Assembly (NCBI GenBank): GCA_002049455.2 | Contig: KV918777.1 | Coordinates: forward strand, 248,001 to 312,000 | Length of the DNA stretch: 64,000 bases | Origin: Porphyra umbilicalis | Lineage: Eukaryota; Rhodophyta; Bangiophyceae; Bangiales; Bangiaceae | Direction: 5' to 3' | Shown: positions 6,805-64,000 of the stretch, piece after piece | Numbering within the stretch: the stretch's first letter is position 1 | How the letters are laid out: every line of letters begins with the position of its first letter | Notes under the pieces: model-generated | The model's input: the letters and a program-made list of their open reading frames with translations, nothing else | The model's database searches: none | Told to the model about the DNA's origin: nothing | Position numbers and translations under genes: made by a program

Positions 6805-8125
6805 TCAAGACGGCCGACGGCACTGAAGATTCTTGAGCCGCCGAGTCAAAGCCACTCGCAAGGGGCACACCTCCCTGTCGCGTCTGCGTTGTCGCAGGCG
6901 CTAGTCGAGATCACATTGATGTCGCAAAATGTCCACCCCCGACGCACACGCGGCGTCGTCGACGCCGAGGTCCTCCACACAGGGGCTCCTGCGGTCCGTC
7001 AAACAGTTGTCCATCTTGACCGCCACTCGGAGGATTTTGCTGCACACCGCCAGAGGGCAGCGCAAAGGCCGCTACAATATCCCCCACCGGCCGACAATCT
7101 GCCCAAAGACCTGCTCCGCAAACGTGCGCGACGAGCTGAGCCAATATTTGAACGAGTCTTTGTCCCACGGCAGGTTCTTCCCCGCCCATGGGGTCAGCAC
7201 GCGGCGGCCGGCCACGTAGGCGTCGTCGGCCGCCACCCAAAGCCCCTCCGGCAACGACCTTTCAGCGCCCAGGACCGCTGCCAAACCGCTCGTAGCCAGC
7301 GCCGTGATATCATGGCAGGATCCTGCCGTCACCGCCGAGAGTAACTGGACGTTGAAATCCGCCCCGACTGCCGCCTGGACGTTAATCGCGACAAAACCCT
7401 TGCGGGTCCAGGATGCCATCAGGTCTGGCAGGTCGGTCACGCGCGGGCGCTGAATGCGCAACGCTAAGCCGTCGATGGCCGAAACACACCCACGGAGTGA
7501 GTTGCGCTGTCCCTTAGAAAAGAGCTCACTTTGCGTGACCAACTCGGCATCTGTTGATGGGAATTTGATGTTGCGCAAGAAGGGCGCACCATGCAAGGCA
7601 GCATGCACCTACAAACAATGAACGAGGGAAAAATTCCAGCAGACTGGATTGGAGCTCGGGTCAGCACGGTGCCATAAAACGATCAGCAAAGGACAGCCAT
7701 CGAAAAATGACAACAGAAAAGCAGCCGAATACGTGAAACAGAGAGGAAGTCGAGGGCTTTCTCAACTCAATCCCTCGAGAAGCACGGCGACGCAACGCAC
7801 GGCCAGGACAGGGAAGCAGCAAACGTACCTAGTGGAACACAGTGTACACCGTGGAGCGGCCAACACCAAAAGCTAGCATACAATCCAGGTATGACACGCC
7901 TGCCAGTAGGCGGAGCGCCATAGCCAGTCTTCAGTCCACAGGGATCCCCTCCCCGCTGGACAGCACCGCCATTTGCTCATCCACGTTCAGCCGGCCGCCG
8001 AGAGCTTCCCGCAATGCGAAAAAGTCATCCCTCGTCATGCGGAAAAGGAGGCGGAAATCCTTGTCGGACACCTCGTGAAGACCGCGAAGCCATCTCAGAC
8101 GCGTGCGACAACAACGTGTGTACTC
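6805..8125 (-). pseudogene. PIF/Harbinger-type transposase (DDE_4-like), broken copy A
   Basis: On the minus strand the conserved N-terminal part (LRWLRGL...FRLLFRMTRDDFFALREAL) ends at about 7931. It is followed, after an in-frame TGA (7931-7933), by RLAMALRLLAG and a GRSTVYTVFH segment. A GTACGT donor and a TTTGTAG acceptor then define an intron at 7609-7828, joined in phase 0. Exon 2 carries the DDE residues in AIDGLALRIQ, AADDAYV and RTFAEQVFGQIVGRW, and ends in the family-typical Arg-rich RRD...LT..L...RRP tail at 6805. Stops interrupt it at 7931-7933 (TGA), 7829-7831 (TAG), 7072-7074 (TAG, in GIL-stop-RPLR) and 6901-6903 (TAG). Family assignment rests on the spacing of the DDE triad and the RWGIL.RPLR motif. 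The element ends were not found. Confidence 0.8.
7609..7828 (-). other. predicted 220-bp intron in Harbinger-type copy A
   Basis: On the minus strand the donor reads GTACGT and the acceptor is a pyrimidine-rich tract ending TTTGTAG. Removing 7609-7828 joins the upstream STVYTVFH frame to VHAALHGAPFLRN in phase 0, matching the continuous helix expected in this transposase family. The codon just before the donor is TAG (7829-7831). Confidence 0.65.
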
Positions 8126-12371: not shown

Positions 12372-13869
12372 TTACTGCGCAGTTGTCTTCATGAAGGCAA
12401 GCACGTCTCTCTTCACGCGAGAGCGACACTCCTCGGCCCCGTCATCCCCCATCAGGCCGTCGATCGGCGGATCCGCTTTAACAGCCGTCAAAAAATCGGC
12501 ATCCCCCAACGAGTGGCACACATTGTGCAACACGCAACACGCAAGGATCCACTCCAAAGCCAACCTAAAACCCTCCTCGGTACCAATAGAGACGCGAAGC
12601 TCCTTCAAGCTCATCCACCACCCCTTCAGCATTCCGACCACGAGCTCGGCGACCTCCCGCAAGCGCGCGAGCTGCCAATTATAGTTTTTGTTCCGCTGCA
12701 ACTCAGCAGCAGGTGCCTTGTCGGGGCCGACCACACGGGCTGTGTGGTACATGCCCTTGTTGCCAAGCAAATATTCCAGCAGAGAAAAAGGGTCTTCTGG
12801 AAATAGATGCCAATCGGCGTGCTTCTGGATCATAATTTCACTGGCCGCCCCCGTGAAGCCCAGGGTGACGGAGATGATGTTCCGGTCGTGGTCACACGAG
12901 AGAAGGACGAGGATGCTGTACCGATCATGCCGGTCCCAGTACGTCCAGGGTTTGACTCGGGGGGCCTAGGCGAGGGGGATTTGGGAGCCGTCGGTTCAGC
13001 CCACGCAGCCGCGGAACCCATAGGTCTCCCATGCGTACTGAGCCTGCTCTTGCCGTCGTTTCGCCGAAGGCCACACAATGTAGGTATCGGAGAGCTTGTT
13101 GACGGCGCGAATAAAGACGCGCATGCACTGCACGACCATCCCGACGCTCAGACCAAACGCGTTGGCGACCCCGATGGCACCTGAAAAAGACAAGAAGAAT
13201 ACTGACAAATAACATAAAAGAGTAAATGTAAACAAAAAATAGGGTGAGCCAGTCTGAGAAAAACAACCAACCAACGGACTTGAAAAAATCAATCATCAAA
13301 TAGGCGGGGTAGAACGTACTTGCGGCGTTCCCTTAGTGCCCCAGACTGAACAGTGCAACCTTTTGCATGAGGTCAACAGGAAAGAGAGGGCGCCCCGTCC
13401 GTCTCTGCTTAGGTAGATGAGCAGGCACAAGTAGCGCCAGCTGCGCGTATGTGGCCCGGTCCATTTGCATGAACTTTCGCCACTGGTACTCTGGCAGGGC
13501 GTCCAGAACATACAAACTCCAGTTAAGGCTCTTGGGTATAAAGTCCCGGTCCATGCGCAGGTTACGGGTCTGCAGGAGAACCTGCAGCCGCTGGCACGAC
13601 ACCCAAAGTGAAAAAGACACCAAGGACATGCCGGCCAGACCGTGCGACGCCAGCGTCTGCTTCGGCCACACCCCGGAGACCTCCAGGCACACGAGAAGCG
13701 TGAGAGCGTACACGTCCCGCACGGCGCGCCGAATGGCAATCTTCCAGTAAGAGACACGCATCATCGTGTACGTTGCGGCGGCGAGGTTGCCGCGCGGTTC
13801 TCGTCGAGCACTTCGTGGGCACCGCGAGTGACCGCTTTTAACAACGCCGCACGCGGTCGTGCATGCCAC
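12372..13869 (-). pseudogene. PIF/Harbinger-type transposase, broken copy B
   Basis: Exon 1 ends ALPEYQWRKFMQM...LMQKVALFSLGH, then TAA (13333-13335) and GNAA. An intron at 13181-13319 (GTACGT donor, pyrimidine tract with CAG acceptor) joins in phase 1 to AIGVANAFGLSVGM. Exon 2 contains the first DDE context TDGSQIP, then LLEYLLGNKGM, where the family usually has Asp at the Asn position, and REVAELVVGMLKGWW carrying the Glu. It ends naturally at 12372. Internal stops are TGA at 12996-12998 and TAG at 12966-12968. The missing second Asp and the stops mean this copy should not be catalytic. It is clearly related in organisation to copy A at 6.8-8.1 kb but not a recent duplicate. Confidence 0.75.
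13181..13319 (-). other. predicted 139-bp intron in Harbinger-type copy B
   Basis: Minus-strand donor GTACGT and acceptor CTTTTTCAG, with an AT-rich and pyrimidine-rich interior. Removal joins the GNAA and AIGVANAFG segments in phase 1, giving continuous family-typical sequence. The interior contrasts strongly in base composition with the GC-rich exons. Confidence 0.75.
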
Positions 13870-20066: not shown

Positions 20067-21598
<1,532 letters not shown>

Positions 21599-29170: not shown

Positions 29171-30889
29171 ATGGGGACGGCCGCGTGGATGCGCCGCTCC
29201 CACCATGCCGCCGTGATGGCCTTCCTCGTGGCCACGGTCGCCATCGTCGCTGCCGCGCTCGTCGCTGCCGTTGGGGCGGCTCCGGCGGTGACGGGTGGCC
29301 CCAGTGCCCTTCACGCGGTGGGCACCCTCGCGACGAAGTCACCGGCCGCCAAGGCGTGGTGGACGTCCTCTCAACCGACGGAGTTCGATCTTGTCCGCCT
29401 GAGGCAGGCGGCACGACAGGGCGAGGTCGACGTTTTGGGACTGGAGCTTGACGCCCGTCGATACTTCGTTAACTTTTGTGACGGCCCGGTCACGCTAAAC
29501 GCCACCTGTCCGTGCTACTTCAAGCCTCTCGTCAGGTCCTCCGTGGCTGGAATTTCGCTTGACGTCACCCTGGCGCTCACCCCGAAGCAGCCGGAGGGTA
29601 CGACAGCGGCCGTTCTGAAGGCAGCCAAGCGCTCTCTAGCCGCCGCTGTCATTGACGGCGCCCCGGCCAACGAGCCCGACTTGTTCAACCCTTCGATTTT
29701 GACCTTCAAGGCCCCTAATGTCATCATTCGAGAGCCGGTGACGGTGACGGTGACGGCCACGAGGCGGGGGGGGCCCAATGACCGTCCCACATCGGGCGAG
29801 TGTCCGGTGCAGTTGAACCTGATCCTTCGCCCTGTGGAGCCAGTGTGCCCGCGGCTCGACATCTCGGCGACAGGTCAAGGGGAGGTGGTCGGCACACCTC
29901 CGTCGGGGCTGTCGAGGGTGTCGGCCGCTCACCCTTCAATCGGCGGTGGCGGCGGCGGGCCGCTGACCCGCCACTTGGAAAGCCCCGTCGCACAGCCCGC
30001 CCCACGAGTCGTTGGCGGGACGCGCCTCAACGACAGCGCCGCCCGCGCATGGGTTGTGCAGCTCTTTGTCAAGAACGGGACTGAGGAGGTCCTTGGCCAT
30101 TGTACCGGATCGCTCATCGGCCGCCGCCACGTCCTCACCGCTGCGCACTGCATGCTGCAGGCGGGGGACATCGTGTCGTTTTTGCCGCCATTGCCATTGC
30201 CTATGGACGACGAAGCGGCGCGCCTAGCCGCCCGCACCAATGTCACCATCACTGAGGTCACGGTATTCCCAGACTACCAGGATGGCTTGTTCGACTATGA
30301 CATTGCGGTCGTGCGTCTCGCCGCCGACGCGCCCACGTGGCTACCACCTCTTGATGGGGATGGTGACGGCGGCGCGCCGACGCCGATGCCTCTGGTGTTC
30401 GTCAACCACGACGAGTCGCTGCCGGTTGACGACACGGGCGGCCGCATCGCCGGCTTTGGCGCGGAGACCCAAGAGTGGGACGCGAGCGACGACAAGGAGC
30501 GTTCTGTGGACGTGCGCTTCATATCCTCCGCCGACTGCGAGGCGACTCACCGCGCGATCGACGAGTTTCTGGGACTCAACGAGACGGTGGGGGGTGCCGT
30601 CGCCCACACCCCCGAATTGCACGTGTGCGCTGCAGTGCCCGACGGCGGCTGTGATTCGTGCCAGGGCGACAGCGGCGGGCCAATCTATCAGACGCTCTCG
30701 CTCCCAACGAGCGATGCCGACGGGCCGCTCGCCACGGTGCCCGTTGTCGTGGGCGTAACCAACTGGGGCATCGGCTGCGCCTTGCGGGGCGTTCCCTCCG
30801 TGTACACCCGCGTTTCGACATATGCAGAGTGGGTTGACAACATCGTGGGGGCCTACACCGGCCCGCCGGCGGACAACCTGCCGTGTTGA
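29171..30889 (+). CDS. secreted S1-family (trypsin-like) serine endopeptidase with novel N-terminal domain
   Basis: An intronless 572-residue preproprotein. Residues 1-40 form a signal peptide (basic MRRSHH, then a long hydrophobic stretch ending near VGAAPA). Residues about 45-270 form a Cys-containing domain I do not recognise, followed by a Gly-rich linker. R279 precedes VVGG, the usual zymogen cleavage point. The peptidase domain has His in TAAHC (H326), Asp in DYDIAVV (D377) and Ser in GDSGGP (S501). An Asp six residues before the Ser (D495) corresponds to the specificity-pocket residue of trypsins and predicts cleavage after Arg/Lys. NWGIGC and PSVYTRVSTYAEWV complete the S1 C-terminus. 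The start ATG has the context agcaATGg with a TATA box upstream. Likely secreted or vacuolar. The substrate is unknown. Confidence 0.92.
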   Translation: MGTAAWMRRSHHAAVMAFLVATVAIVAAALVAAVGAAPAVTGGPSALHAVGTLATKSPAAKAWWTSSQPTEFDLVRLRQAARQGEVDVLGLELDARRYFVNFCDGPVTLNATCPCYFKPLVRSSVAGISLDVTLALTPKQPEGTTAAVLKAAKRSLAAAVIDGAPANEPDLFNPSILTFKAPNVIIREPVTVTVTATRRGGPNDRPTSGECPVQLNLILRPVEPVCPRLDISATGQGEVVGTPPSGLSRVSAAHPSIGGGGGGPLTRHLESPVAQPAPRVVGGTRLNDSAARAWVVQLFVKNGTEEVLGHCTGSLIGRRHVLTAAHCMLQAGDIVSFLPPLPLPMDDEAARLAARTNVTITEVTVFPDYQDGLFDYDIAVVRLAADAPTWLPPLDGDGDGGAPTPMPLVFVNHDESLPVDDTGGRIAGFGAETQEWDASDDKERSVDVRFISSADCEATHRAIDEFLGLNETVGGAVAHTPELHVCAAVPDGGCDSCQGDSGGPIYQTLSLPTSDADGPLATVPVVVGVTNWGIGCALRGVPSVYTRVSTYAEWVDNIVGAYTGPPADNLPC

Positions 30890-42759: not shown

Positions 42760-43182
42760 ATGGCGCGGACTAAGCGGGCGAGCGACGACTTGCTCAAGGC
42801 CAACACTGCCATTGCGAACGCAAGAAAGATGGTCAAGAAGGCGCCCCGGAAGAGCGGTCCCAGGACAAGCATCCTTCGGGAGAGGCCGCGCTACAGGCCG
42901 GGGGAGCTGGCGCTGAGAGAGATCCGGCAGTTCCATAAGACAACAATGCCCGTCATCCGCAAGCTTCCTTTTGTGCGCCTCGTACGCGAGCTCGCACAGA
43001 ACGCGGTTGCTACATCCTTCCGCTTCAAGGCAGATGCCCTCGCTGCGCTGCAAGAGGCAGCAGAGGCCTATGTTGTGCACCTCTTTGAGGATGCGAACCT
43101 ATGCGCTGTGCACGCCAAGCGCGTCACCATTATGAGCAAAGACATCCAGCTTGCGCGGCGCATTCGGGGCGAGCGGGCGTGA
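42760..43182 (+). CDS. divergent histone H3, candidate centromeric H3 (CenH3/CENP-A)
   Basis: A complete intronless 140-residue H3-fold protein with ATG in a good context (cgtcATGGcg). It begins MARTK but the tail then departs completely ([19 protein letters not shown]), losing the K9, K14 and K27 contexts. The core shows the CenH3 hallmarks. Gln in the RRFQK position is His (QFHKTT). Loop 1 reads [16 protein letters not shown], one residue longer than the [15 protein letters not shown] of canonical H3, and the FKTD Thr context is lost. The [14 protein letters not shown] helix resembles plant CENH3. The C-terminus ([20 protein letters not shown]) is nearly canonical, so the fold is intact. 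CenH3 replaces H3 at centromeres and recruits the kinetochore. A non-centromeric H3 variant is the alternative. Confidence 0.75.
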
Positions 43183-60339: not shown

Positions 60340-61986
60340 ATGTCTACTGGTGGTACCGGCGGCACTCGGCGAGCCAGAGACGGCAAGTTGCCATCTGGCT
60401 ACCGGCCGCCGGGCGGGGGACAAGGCACTCCTGCCGCCTCCGACGCCCCCACGGACGGTGCTCCAACTCCTCCCATCCCTGCGGATCAAGCCGCCTCTGG
60501 GCAGATGCAGGTGGTGGAGAGCCTGAAGGCGGCCGTTGAAGCACTTCAGCGACGCCTAACGGCCCAAGAACAGACTAACGAGTCTCTGGCGCGAGCCAAT
60601 GACAAGTTGGCCGACGACGTCGAGGCCCTGCGCAAGGTCGACTCCCATGAGGAGGAACGCCGTGTGGCTAAGTCTCGCTGCCAGTCGGGCGACAAGACCA
60701 AGGACGTCAAGAAGACGAACAAGGTGATCAAGGACAAGTCCGTCCGCAAGGACGCTCCGGCTAACGCCGCGCTTTCCTCATCTTCCGACGATTCCGCGTC
60801 TGGGTCAAGCCCGACGTCGTCAGACGACGACAACCCCAACGCGACGGACACGTCCTCTTCGGACGATGGCCACGGGCCCCCACACCCGCCGTCGCCCCCA
60901 AGTGGGTCCTCGCCGAGCGAAAGCTCGAGCGAGTCGGACGCTGCCGCGCGCAAGCGCCCGACGCCCCCCACCAAACGGAAGGAGCGACTTGAAAAAGCCG
61001 ATAGGATCAAGGTGATCCGCCCGGCTAATAGCCGCTTCAAGACACTCCTGGACTACAGGACGTACTTCCTGATCCGCCGTCAACTGACGTATACGCCTAA
61101 AGAGGCACAGCGGTCGCACCGTCTCAACAAACGTTTGGACTGAGCGTTCCATGGGCAACAGCCATTCACGGGAGCCCTGCCCTTGGGCATCTTCACGTTC
61201 TCGACGACCTTTCGCCGCGCGTGCGACGCGGCTGGGCTGACGCACGGTCAAGCCCTTCCGCTTATGGTCTTTCGACTAGCCGGCAACGCCAAGATGGCCT
61301 TCTCCGGCGCGCTTAACAGCACCCTCGGACGTAAGCGTTACGCCATCCGTACCTACGGAGATGCCGTCAACTGGCTTCTTTCGAAGTATGCGACACACGC
61401 AACCATGGCTAACGCCTATCAAGACATCATTACGATGAAGCAACAAGACAACGAGGCGCCCACGGCCTTTGGCCATCGCGTGGAAACGCAATGCGACCTC
61501 CTGAACGGTTTGTTCGACATCCAAGACGTTAAGGACGTCTTCATCACTGGTCTTTCGGACCTTGTGCAAGCGCACGTACGGGTACTGAACGACCAGTTCC
61601 CCGACCGAACCCTGTCTGAGACGGTCGCCACCGCCCAGATGTATTGGGACGGTACGAACAAGTTGCGTTTGCAACTCAAGATTACCCGCCCAACGGCGAT
61701 CAAAGTCGCTTACGCGACACAAGACCAGCGGACGACGACGGAACGACCGTTCACACCGGTTCGCACCCCTCCGCCCCCTCGGGCTGCCGTCCCTCAAGCC
61801 AATCGGGCTGACATCTGTTACAACTGTAACAAGCCGGGGCACTTCGCCGCACAGTGTGCCGAGCCTTATCGCCCTCGCGAGCGTCGGCAACCGCCTATCG
61901 GCGTTCATGCCCTTGCGGACGGCAACGTCGAGGAAGACGAAGTCGAGCATCCGGCCGACGCCGTGGACGACTCGAAAAACGTCTAG
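60340..61986 (+). pseudogene. gag polyprotein of Ty3/gypsy element, one in-frame TGA
   Basis: ATG 60340 opens an N-terminal region with a coiled coil (VESLKAAVEALQRRLTAQEQ) and a Ser/Asp/Pro-rich linker. TGA follows at 61141-61143, and the same frame continues for 281 codons. The downstream part has the capsid-like segment PFTGALPLGIFTFSTTF and ends with a zinc knuckle CYNCNKPGHFAAQC (CX2CX4HX4C, about 61815-61856) typical of nucleocapsid. It packages the element RNA. TAG at 61984-61986 ends it inside the pol overlap. Whether the internal TGA is a mutation or is read through is discussed in the findings. Confidence 0.85.
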
Positions 61987-64000
61987 GCCGGGTGCCCGAC
62001 TTGGGGTTGCCCGGCGGAACGCGAAAGCGTACGGTGACAAGACTCTTACGTCGTGCCCTTCGGCACTATGAGATCGCAGCCACGTTAGGCCCATGCCTGC
62101 GCATAATGCGAAGTTGCCGCCCTGTCTTAGACACGGGCGCCGGGGTGAACATAGTGCGAACTAGTGTTCTCCCTTCGAACTGGATGGCTTACGCCGAAGA
62201 GTTGACTACGCTTCCGCGCATCCGAGATGCAAACAACAATCGTCTTGTGACGAAGTATGCCATTCATCTGTGTGTAGACACCGGAGGTGTGCGTCTATTT
62301 GACCGATTCCTCGTTGCCGACAACTTGTCAGTCCCGTGCATTCTTGGCACCGAGTTCATTGAACAAAACATCGAGGGCATTCTGCCGCGCTTGCGCAAGA
62401 TCGTCTGGCAAGAGCACGTGCGATGCACGGAAGAGCAACCTCGGCCAACGCCGATCTTAGCTTGTCTTAACGACAGCGCGTGGGACCGCCACTGGCAAGA
62501 TAAACCCGCTTGGGTTCGAGCCTGCAAACAGGTGCGTGTCAACGGACACAAGGAGGAGTGGATCATGGCCACGTGCGACACGCCTGGTATGGTTACCATC
62601 ACACCGAACATTCGGTTGTGCCGACACAAGGCCATGGCCGTCGCCCGCGGCATCGCCATCGTCAAACCGGACGAACCATTCCTGGTCAAGTTATGCAACT
62701 TCGGCAAGGACCAAGTCATTGTTCGCAAGAACTCTACCTTAGGGTTTGCGGAACCCTACCAAGGGCCGGTGCTTTCCGCCGTCTTGGATGACAACACCCC
62801 AAAGGGTGGAACCGATAACTCATCGGACGACGCGAGTCGTGACCCACTCGAGGACCTCGACCTCAGTGAGGCACCCGAGTACCTGCACAAGCAGATTCGT
62901 GACATGCTTAAGACGCATTCGTCTATGTGGGATGGAACCCTTGGCGTCATCCGTGCTACGGAGCACGCCATCGTCACTCCTCCCGACGCTCTGCCCATAC
63001 GGGCCCAACCCTACCGCACCGGGCCGTTCATACGGCAGATCATCGCTGATCAAATCAACAAGATGTTGAAGCTCAACGTCATTGCCCCTAGCCACAGTGC
63101 TTGGGCAAGCCCCGTGGTAATTGTACCCAAGAAGAACGGCAAAGCCCGGTTCTGTGTCGACTATCGTCGGTTAAACAACATCACCAAGAAGGATGCTTAT
63201 CCCTTGCCTCGGATGGAGGACTGCCTCGACTCCTTGGGAGATGCCCAGGTGTTCGCGTCTCTCGACTGCACCGCGGGGTACTGGCAAGTACCCTTAAGCA
63301 AGGACGACCAAGAGAAGACGGCGTTCACGACGCACTGTGGTATATACCACTGGTTATCCATGCCTTTCGGCTTGACGAACGCGCCCGCTACCTTCCAGCG
63401 CGCGTTGGATATTATCCTCTCCGGTTTGAAGTGGCAGATATGCCTCGTCTACTTAGACGATGTCATCATCTTCTCCGCAAACGCGGAACAACACGTCAAA
63501 GACGTTGACACGGTTCTTCACCGTCTCCGCGAAGCCGGGGTCACCCTCAACTTGGAAAAGTGTACGTGGTTCTCCGATGAGGTCGAGTACCTAGGACACA
63601 TTGTCCGCCCCGGGCAACTGCACGTGCACAACAAGAACGTGGATGCTCTGAAGCATGCCAAGTTCCCAACCACAAAGACCCAGCTGAAAAGCTTCTTGGG
63701 CATGTGCAACGTCTATCGACGGTTTGTCAAAGACTTTGCCAAACGAGCAAAGCCCCTGAACGCCCTGACTAGGGCCGAGATCCCACCGGATTGACCACCA
63801 CCGACGGACGTGGCTATCGCCGCCTTCGAGGACCTTCGCAACGCACTGTTGTGCCCACCGGTACTTGCCTTGCCGAAGGCCAATCGGAAGCTCGTCGTTG
63901 ACGTGGACGCCTGCGCCGACCAAGTTGGTTGTACCCTCCTCCAAGAGGAGCCGGGCGAACTGCTTCACCCTGTCGGGTATTGGAGCCGAGGACTCACTGC
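61854..64000 (+). pseudogene. pol polyprotein (protease, reverse transcriptase, RNase H start), truncated by window edge
   Basis: The frame lies one base back (-1) relative to gag and overlaps it over 61854-61986. The aspartic protease motif DTGAG is at 62130 and ILGTEF follows about 70 codons later. Reverse transcriptase blocks are VPKKNGKARFCVDYRRLN, FASLDCTAGYWQVPL (first catalytic Asp), MPFGLTNAPATFQ and YLDD (63450-63461), then EVEYLGHIV. TGA at 63792-63794 falls where relatives have Trp before the RNase H-like domain. The frame then continues AIAAFEDLRNALL, VVDVDACADQVGCTLL and HPVGYWSRGL to the edge. It copies RNA into DNA for integration. Confidence 0.9.
61974..61980 (+). promoter_or_regulatory. 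candidate -1 ribosomal frameshift site between gag and pol
   Basis: GAAAAAC is positioned in the gag frame as G-AAA-AAC, four bases before the gag stop TAG (61984-61986). It is close to, but not, the canonical X-XXY-YYZ heptamer because the first base is G. Pol is in the -1 frame, so slippage here would produce Gag-Pol. Confidence 0.4.

Follow-up and report, generated by a model that had tools for sequence, protein, structure and literature searches.

In other eukaryotes, loop 1 and the first half of helix 2 constitute the CENP-A targeting region, and Gln68 is the glutamine meant by the hallmark that the literature names for centromeric H3 histones (CenH3s). Plant CENH3s have a MARTK-type start, Arabidopsis CENH3 carries RPW near its end, and the nucleomorph of Guillardia is of red-algal origin. 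To our knowledge, the centromeres of multicellular red algae have scarcely been mapped, and a literature search, mostly by titles among the matches listed, returned no report of a CenH3 from Bangiales. If the gene described below is a CenH3 gene, it would provide a bait for ChIP and hence a centromere map of nori-type algae.

According to excerpts of published papers, a longer loop 1 and a replaced Gln served as criteria for the CENP-A candidate of Paradiplonema, which forms nuclear foci (PMC11633173), the CENH3 of Chlorella, which was used for ChIP-seq, starts with MARTK (PMC11005252), and the tail of the C. merolae cenH3 comprises 170 residues (PMC9145170). However, the extended loop 1 is said, in an excerpt of another paper, to be missing in the CENP-A of the Guillardia nucleomorph (PMC9252888), which suggests that loop 1 length is no absolute CenH3 criterion. 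An earlier note on this DNA had treated a longer loop 1 and the loss of the Gln before helix 1 and of the FKTD Thr as established hallmarks; the longer loop is apparently not universal. Moreover, the monophyly of CenH3s has been called uncertain in the available part of a further study (PMC3380720).

The P0001 gene and its parts

The gene P0001 lies in a 64-kb window that corresponds to bases 248001-312000 of contig C17, and the genome searched comprises 83.8 Mb in 665 contigs. P0001 is an uninterrupted ORF without an intron at positions 42760-43182 (+) of the window and encodes a divergent H3 variant of 140 residues (140 codons plus stop), which starts with MARTK and ends in ARRIRGERA. The histone fold is complete, as revealed by matches to the Pfam family Histone (PF00125, E 1.3e-35) and to H3 chains in the PDB (E 1.8e-43). 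Thus, the earlier description of an intact H3-type ORF with an ARTK start was correct, and, judging from the E-value, this 140-residue frame cannot be a chance ORF. P0001 also lies just over the Pfam cut-off of CENP-T_C (28.3 vs 28.1 bits; the canonical H3 of the window scores 23.5) and reaches that of CBFD_NFYB_HMF (21.4), both of which are taken as cross-matches among histone folds. A search of the genome for CBFD_NFYB_HMF gave six matches.

The N-terminal tail (residues 2-44; 42763-42891, +) consists of ARTK followed by a divergent stretch. It had been called unrelated to H3 after MARTK; the divergence stands, but the segment KKAPRKSGP resembles the K27/S28 stretch, a similarity that is borderline because 102 of 2000 shuffles scored as high. 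Two glutamines of the fold are replaced. The His59 codon (42934-42936, +) aligns with Gln55 of H3, a position that holds Gln in 63, Glu in three and Arg in two of the 73 H3 loci of the genome, whereas four loci do not align; His occurs in P0001 alone, in agreement with the His that the earlier note had seen in place of the Gln before helix 1. The second replacement, Q68V, was absent from that note. The Val72 codon (42973-42975, +) aligns with Gln68 in the PFQRL motif of helix 1, where Gln is found in 58 loci, Val in P0001 and in four loci of class D, Lys in L058 and L042, Arg in L027 and L071, Pro in L050 and Glu in L065, with four loci not aligned.

Loop 1 (NAVATS; 43000-43017, +) reads NAVATSFRF up to the RF motif, as compared with DFKTDLRF in the canonical H3 at 20067-20477 (-) of the window, which was used as the reference. 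The additional residue that had been noticed in this comparison occurs in no other measurable locus: in the 67 of 73 loci in which the loop 1 span was measurable, 66 have the canonical length and P0001 alone is longer by one (in the other six loci, the span was not measurable). The state of Thr80 depends on the placement of the one-residue gap, since Thr is lost in one alignment and paired with T80 in another; counting back from RF, a Thr of P0001 stands at the canonical Thr place. The FKTD context has indeed gone, as previously stated, but the proposed loss of its Thr is not firm. Further downstream, the His107 codon (VHLFED; 43078-43080, +) replaces a Gly of canonical H3 and corresponds to a His in three of six CenH3 references.

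The C-terminus (residues 122-140; 43123-43179, +) is nearly canonical, as had been observed before: a single exchange (S for P) separates its last 19 residues from those of canonical H3. In the final 31 codons, dS reaches 1.37 against a dN of 0.088, which argues that this end has been kept by selection; recent gene conversion as its source is excluded by the dS value. The view that so little C-terminal divergence is unusual for a CenH3 did not hold, because Cnp1 of S. pombe (letter-for-letter match to PDB 9lrv) ends similarly, in RRIRGA. P0001 lacks the hydrophobic C-terminal tail (for CENP-C), a feature that is not defining given the end of Cnp1.

Compared with its own canonical H3, P0001 shows dS 1.40 and dN 0.22 (dN/dS about 0.16); its divergence is old and constrained, with dS near saturation. 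These and all other rates are simple Nei-Gojobori counts for pairs of single sequences. The GC3 value is 0.743 in P0001 vs 0.926 in canonical H3. When 3 kb around P0001 were compared with the genome (40 of 48 candidates scored), matches were confined to the H3 fold and one 254-base stretch at 68% on C269. P0001 is thus apparently single-copy and located outside repeats; copy counts are lower bounds since the genome search scores the best candidates only. For relatives of P0001 in IMG/VR, 22 stretches fitted a pattern and none was confirmed.

The H3 family of the genome and its mobile members

With P0001 as the query, 75 matches at E <=0.01 were obtained in 73 loci, all of which were compared and sorted into classes by eye. 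Canonical H3 is encoded by L002-L005, and classes A and B comprise many dispersed copies. Class C is L030, with one stop in the tail frame, class D consists of L045, L053, L054 and L055, class E, with a long tail, of L047, L048, L052, L056, L057 and L059-L062, and class F of L058. Decayed copies with in-frame stops are L065 (C28:99025-99324), L066 (C211) and L068 (C304), and the remaining loci are fragments or decayed copies. With human CENP-A as the query and E <=10, four additional matches appeared, all of them weak and partial (E 0.006 to 3.3) and none spanning the fold; a search with maize CENH3 returned nothing beyond the 73 loci.

In the window, the canonical H3 gene stands head to head with a gene at 21287-21598 (+), about 0.8 kb away, which we take to be histone H4 by its sequence. 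The same canonical H3 protein is encoded by a second gene at C17:222707-223111. In the available part of PMC3380720, VG and SAVL are tabulated for Porphyra 'H3.1?', and these residues are found in the canonical H3 of the window as well as in L003; L002 carries those tabulated there for 'H3.3?' (S- and TAVL). On this basis, we regard the alga as Porphyra-like. Elsewhere in the window, there are two DDE_Tnp_4 transposase pieces at 7072-7419 (-) and 12372-12833 (-), an ORF of 572 aa for a trypsin-like serine protease at 29171-30889 (+) and a retroelement with a zinc knuckle ORF at 61264-61986 (+) and a reverse transcriptase ORF at 62106-63794 (+). Pfam gave no matches for ten further window ORFs, and Rfam none at the gathering threshold over the 64-kb window. 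In the genome, 12 phycobilisome-linker matches were detected, four on C665 and eight elsewhere; an 893-residue frame with three such matches suggests that C665 is plastid-like. These matches point to a red alga, and a source outside the red algae was rejected on their account.

Several variant classes are equally or more divergent than P0001. Class D proteins start with MARVKQ and extend beyond the canonical end with SRPW or SRP; L045 and L053 have ORFs of 167 aa, and the class is constrained (dS 0.817, dN 0.093). Two copies are part of a repeated unit, of which the copies at C137:43377-55851 (L045, L081, L082, L087) and on C37 (L055, L083, L084, L086) align as three blocks spanning about 12.5 kb and share the same end bases. 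The unit showed no recognisable transposase (C137 ORFs inspected by eye), lacked long inverted ends and gave no clear sign of a target duplication. L053 and L054 match L045 over about 510 bases, i.e. the gene region alone. Class E proteins start with MGRTK, several have tails of more than 100 aa, and six of nine copies share flanking DNA; constraint is evident from L047/L052 (dS 0.547, dN 0.021), and Q68 and T80 are kept in the eight folds compared. L058 (C240:94900-97400; starts MARTKNTARRTPPPPP) is a divergent H3 with Q68K and canonical loop length, whose flanks are largely single copy, with two stretches elsewhere at 68-69%.

Genes of classes A and B share kilobases of flanking DNA, at about 83-99.8% within one family among the rows listed. 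A comparison of three copies over 20 kb showed that the element spans about 13 kb and has the inverted ends GAGCAAACCCTGCAACGTCG; the copies are located at C98:131743-145135 (L075, L076), C8:968-14009 (L077, L078) and C58:20319-33565 (L079, L080); one base differs at one inverted end of the C58 copy. The three elements are flanked by 3-base target duplications, TGA, TTA and TCA, as judged by eye. On one side of the H3 gene is a transposase, which in the two copies scanned matched Plant_tran (E 2e-60 and 2.1e-59) and also DDE_Tnp_4; on the other side is a protein that, in the one copy scanned, showed a weak NAM-associated domain (E 1.4e-6). From the domains and target sites, we take the element to be of the PIF/Harbinger type. 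With up to one mismatch, its 20-base end occurs 61 times in forward and 54 times in reverse orientation, and the reversed control 0 times. Among 100 places listed, 25 inward-facing end pairs 5-20 kb apart were found (one element, on C245, being counted twice), and 22 of the 25 enclose an H3 locus. Moreover, of 72 H3 loci (all except P0001), 35 are no more than 12 kb away from a listed 20-base end. A location of P0001 inside such a transposon was rejected: the window contains no 20-base end at <=3 mismatches, and the flanks of the gene are largely unique.

Comparisons of A with B transposon H3s, one representative each, gave dS 0.894 with dN 0.044 and dS 0.706 with dN 0.049, and dN/dS between family representatives is about 0.05-0.07, which indicates strong constraint between families. 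Within subsets, the copies drift: 13 A1 copies have a mean dS of 0.0042 and dN of 0.0067, and for seven B copies the ratio is 0.80. Selection thus probably acted on the transposon-borne H3s during the divergence of the lineages, and individual copies probably degenerate once inserted. This raises the question of histones as parts of mobile elements. A literature search that covered listings and passages of PMC9145170, with most subscription journals outside its coverage, found no report of H3-carrying transposons.

Phylogenetic placement and likeness to CenH3s

A tree was calculated from 95 fold columns, with the loop insert removed, for 21 rows including six CenH3s, none of them red-algal. 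The sequences of human CENP-A, Cnp1 and the histone-fold part of Cse4 agree with PDB chains in every letter, and commonly cited sequences were used for the rows of mouse CENP-A, the CENH3s of Arabidopsis and maize, and human and yeast H3; the "Arabidopsis H3" row is an H3.1/H3.2 chain among the PDB matches, presumably from this organism. The CenH3 references cluster weakly (47/97), and P0001 adjoins class D (74/87), in a tree whose bootstrap had not settled. Constraining P0001 with the CenH3s is 7.7 log units worse (AU p 0.067). The corresponding AU p values are 0.10 for class D, 0.17 for class F and 0.23 for P0001 and class D together, and joining all H3s of this genome gives 0.037. Without classes E and F, P0001 stays beside class D (74/92; placement with the CenH3s at AU p 0.20); when class D is removed as well, P0001 groups with the CenH3 references at 61/50, which amounts to no support. 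The phylogeny that the earlier note had proposed as a check thus neither shows nor rejects CenH3 identity. The same holds for a place among its own canonical H3s: constraining P0001 with them is 12.2 log units worse (AU p 0.10), so that this position is neither supported nor rejected.

P0001 has 24 fold substitutions relative to five canonical H3s, 12 of which also occur in one or more of the six CenH3s; for instance, V is replaced by L before ALQ, as in five of six CenH3s, and G by H in VHLFED, as in three of six. The corresponding counts are 19/39 for L045 of class D, 7/18 for class A, 8/19 for class B, 12/26 for L047 of class E and 8/35 for class F, and the fraction among the CenH3s themselves is 0.29-0.45. 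On these counts, P0001 is not separated from the other variants by its share of CenH3-like substitutions. With human CENP-A as the query, P0001 ranks eighth, below all four canonical H3s as well as three copies of class B; with maize CENH3 it ranks third (108.8 bits vs 109.1 for canonical H3).

A candidate CenH3 and the competing readings

We consider it the best single explanation, with a probability of about 0.56, that P0001 is the CenH3 of this red alga, as the earlier note had proposed. This reading draws on the only extended loop 1, the exchanges Q55H and Q68V, the divergent tail, the apparent single copy and the old, constrained divergence. Also in its favour are the 12 fold substitutions shared with CenH3s, the place beside the CenH3 references once classes D, E and F are left out (though at 61/50), the presence of NDC80, and the known CenH3s with a MARTK start or a near-canonical C-terminus. 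It is weakened by the tree, which, with class D included, does not place P0001 with the CenH3s, and the main doubt arises from the other divergent H3s of the genome, L058 and classes D and E. Counted against it are the position beside class D, a loop longer by only one residue, the non-discriminating share of CenH3-like substitutions, the ranks in the human CENP-A and maize CENH3 searches, the lack of a hydrophobic C-terminal tail, the possible retention of T80 and, as a weak negative, the lack of a CENP-C match. As a CenH3, P0001 would take the place of H3 in centromeric nucleosomes, where a chaperone and proteins of the inner kinetochore would recognise its altered loop 1 and the altered first half of its helix 2; the inner kinetochore proteins would in turn bring in the outer kinetochore with NDC80. 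The genome encodes NDC80 (C139:12052-12411, E 4.9e-28); it probably has a conventional outer kinetochore, and a CenH3 of some kind may therefore be expected. Searches for inner components were weak negatives: the CENP-C profile PF11699 found nothing in the genome (8 of 14 control genomes gave signal, none over the cut-off), nor did the human CENP-C protein, used without a positive control, or the SANTA/KNL2 search, for which no control gave signal.

P0001 could also be a lineage-specific, stage- or chromatin-specific H3 variant without a centromeric role, its longer loop being incidental, and the true CenH3 could have been missed because it is split by introns, too divergent or unassembled. 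The genome indeed holds many divergent H3s (classes A-F), the trees that include class D keep P0001 away from the CenH3s, its C-terminus is canonical, and an exon-by-exon search could overlook a spliced CenH3. We regard this as unlikely, albeit deserving serious weight, since P0001 is an apparently single-copy, old and constrained gene and the sole measurable H3 with the loop hallmark, and since the human CENP-A search added only partial matches and the maize CENH3 search no further locus. Rather improbable is that the CenH3 is another H3 of this genome. L058 has largely single-copy flanks and has lost Q68, several class E genes have tails of more than 100 aa, recalling the long tail of the C. 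merolae cenH3, and some class E copies are constrained, and class D combines Q68V, RPW near the end as in Arabidopsis CENH3, constraint and 167-aa ORFs; the AU p values for classes D and F are no worse than that of P0001, and the Guillardia nucleomorph CENP-A is said, in the excerpt cited above, to do without the extended loop (PMC9252888). However, the longer loop 1 occurs in none of the L058, class D and class E loci measured, two of four class D and six of nine class E copies lie in repeated DNA, the eight class E folds compared retain Q68 and T80, and L058 has few substitutions in common with CenH3s (8/35). A decaying or non-expressed H3 copy, finally, would fit the lower GC3 value of P0001, but is extremely improbable given the intact ORF, the near-saturated dS, the dN/dS ratio and the low dN at the C-terminus, all the more as several decayed H3 copies elsewhere in the genome carry stops.

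A wider scenario, a long shot, combines the CenH3 reading with the mobile DNA. P0001 would serve as the host CenH3, and class D would stem from a copy of the P0001 lineage that the repeated, apparently mobile 12.5 kb unit has acquired. Together with the PIF/Harbinger-type transposons, which also carry selected H3s, mobile DNA might thus equip itself with chromatin proteins, one of them CenH3-like, so that its copies are marked or escape silencing.

Class D, the nearest neighbour of P0001 in the trees (without a star), shares with it PFVRLVRE, F before RF and VV in helix 2, and, in L045 and L055, PV before helix 1. It differs by the canonical loop 1 span, the residues past the canonical end, a greater divergence and the location of two of four copies in the repeated unit. 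Sequence identity of P0001 in the histone fold amounts to 73% with its own canonical H3, 63% with maize CENH3, 60% with Cnp1 and 57% with human CENP-A. With the canonical H3.1/H3.3 proteins (L002-L005) P0001 also has 18 of the 19 final residues in common, but the fold substitutions, the one-residue insertion, the other tail and a dS of about 1.4 set it apart from replication-type H3 and H3.3. Like CenH3, CENP-A, Cse4 and Cnp1, P0001 combines the H3 fold with a longer loop 1 and a replaced Gln68, and it shares VHLFED and A-L before the ALQ motif with several CenH3s and the MARTK-type start with Chlorella CENH3. In contrast, loop 1 is longer by two to six residues in all six references and by only one in P0001, no CENP-C was detected in the genome, the C-terminus of P0001 is canonical, and the residue after the loop is W or Y in all six and F in P0001.
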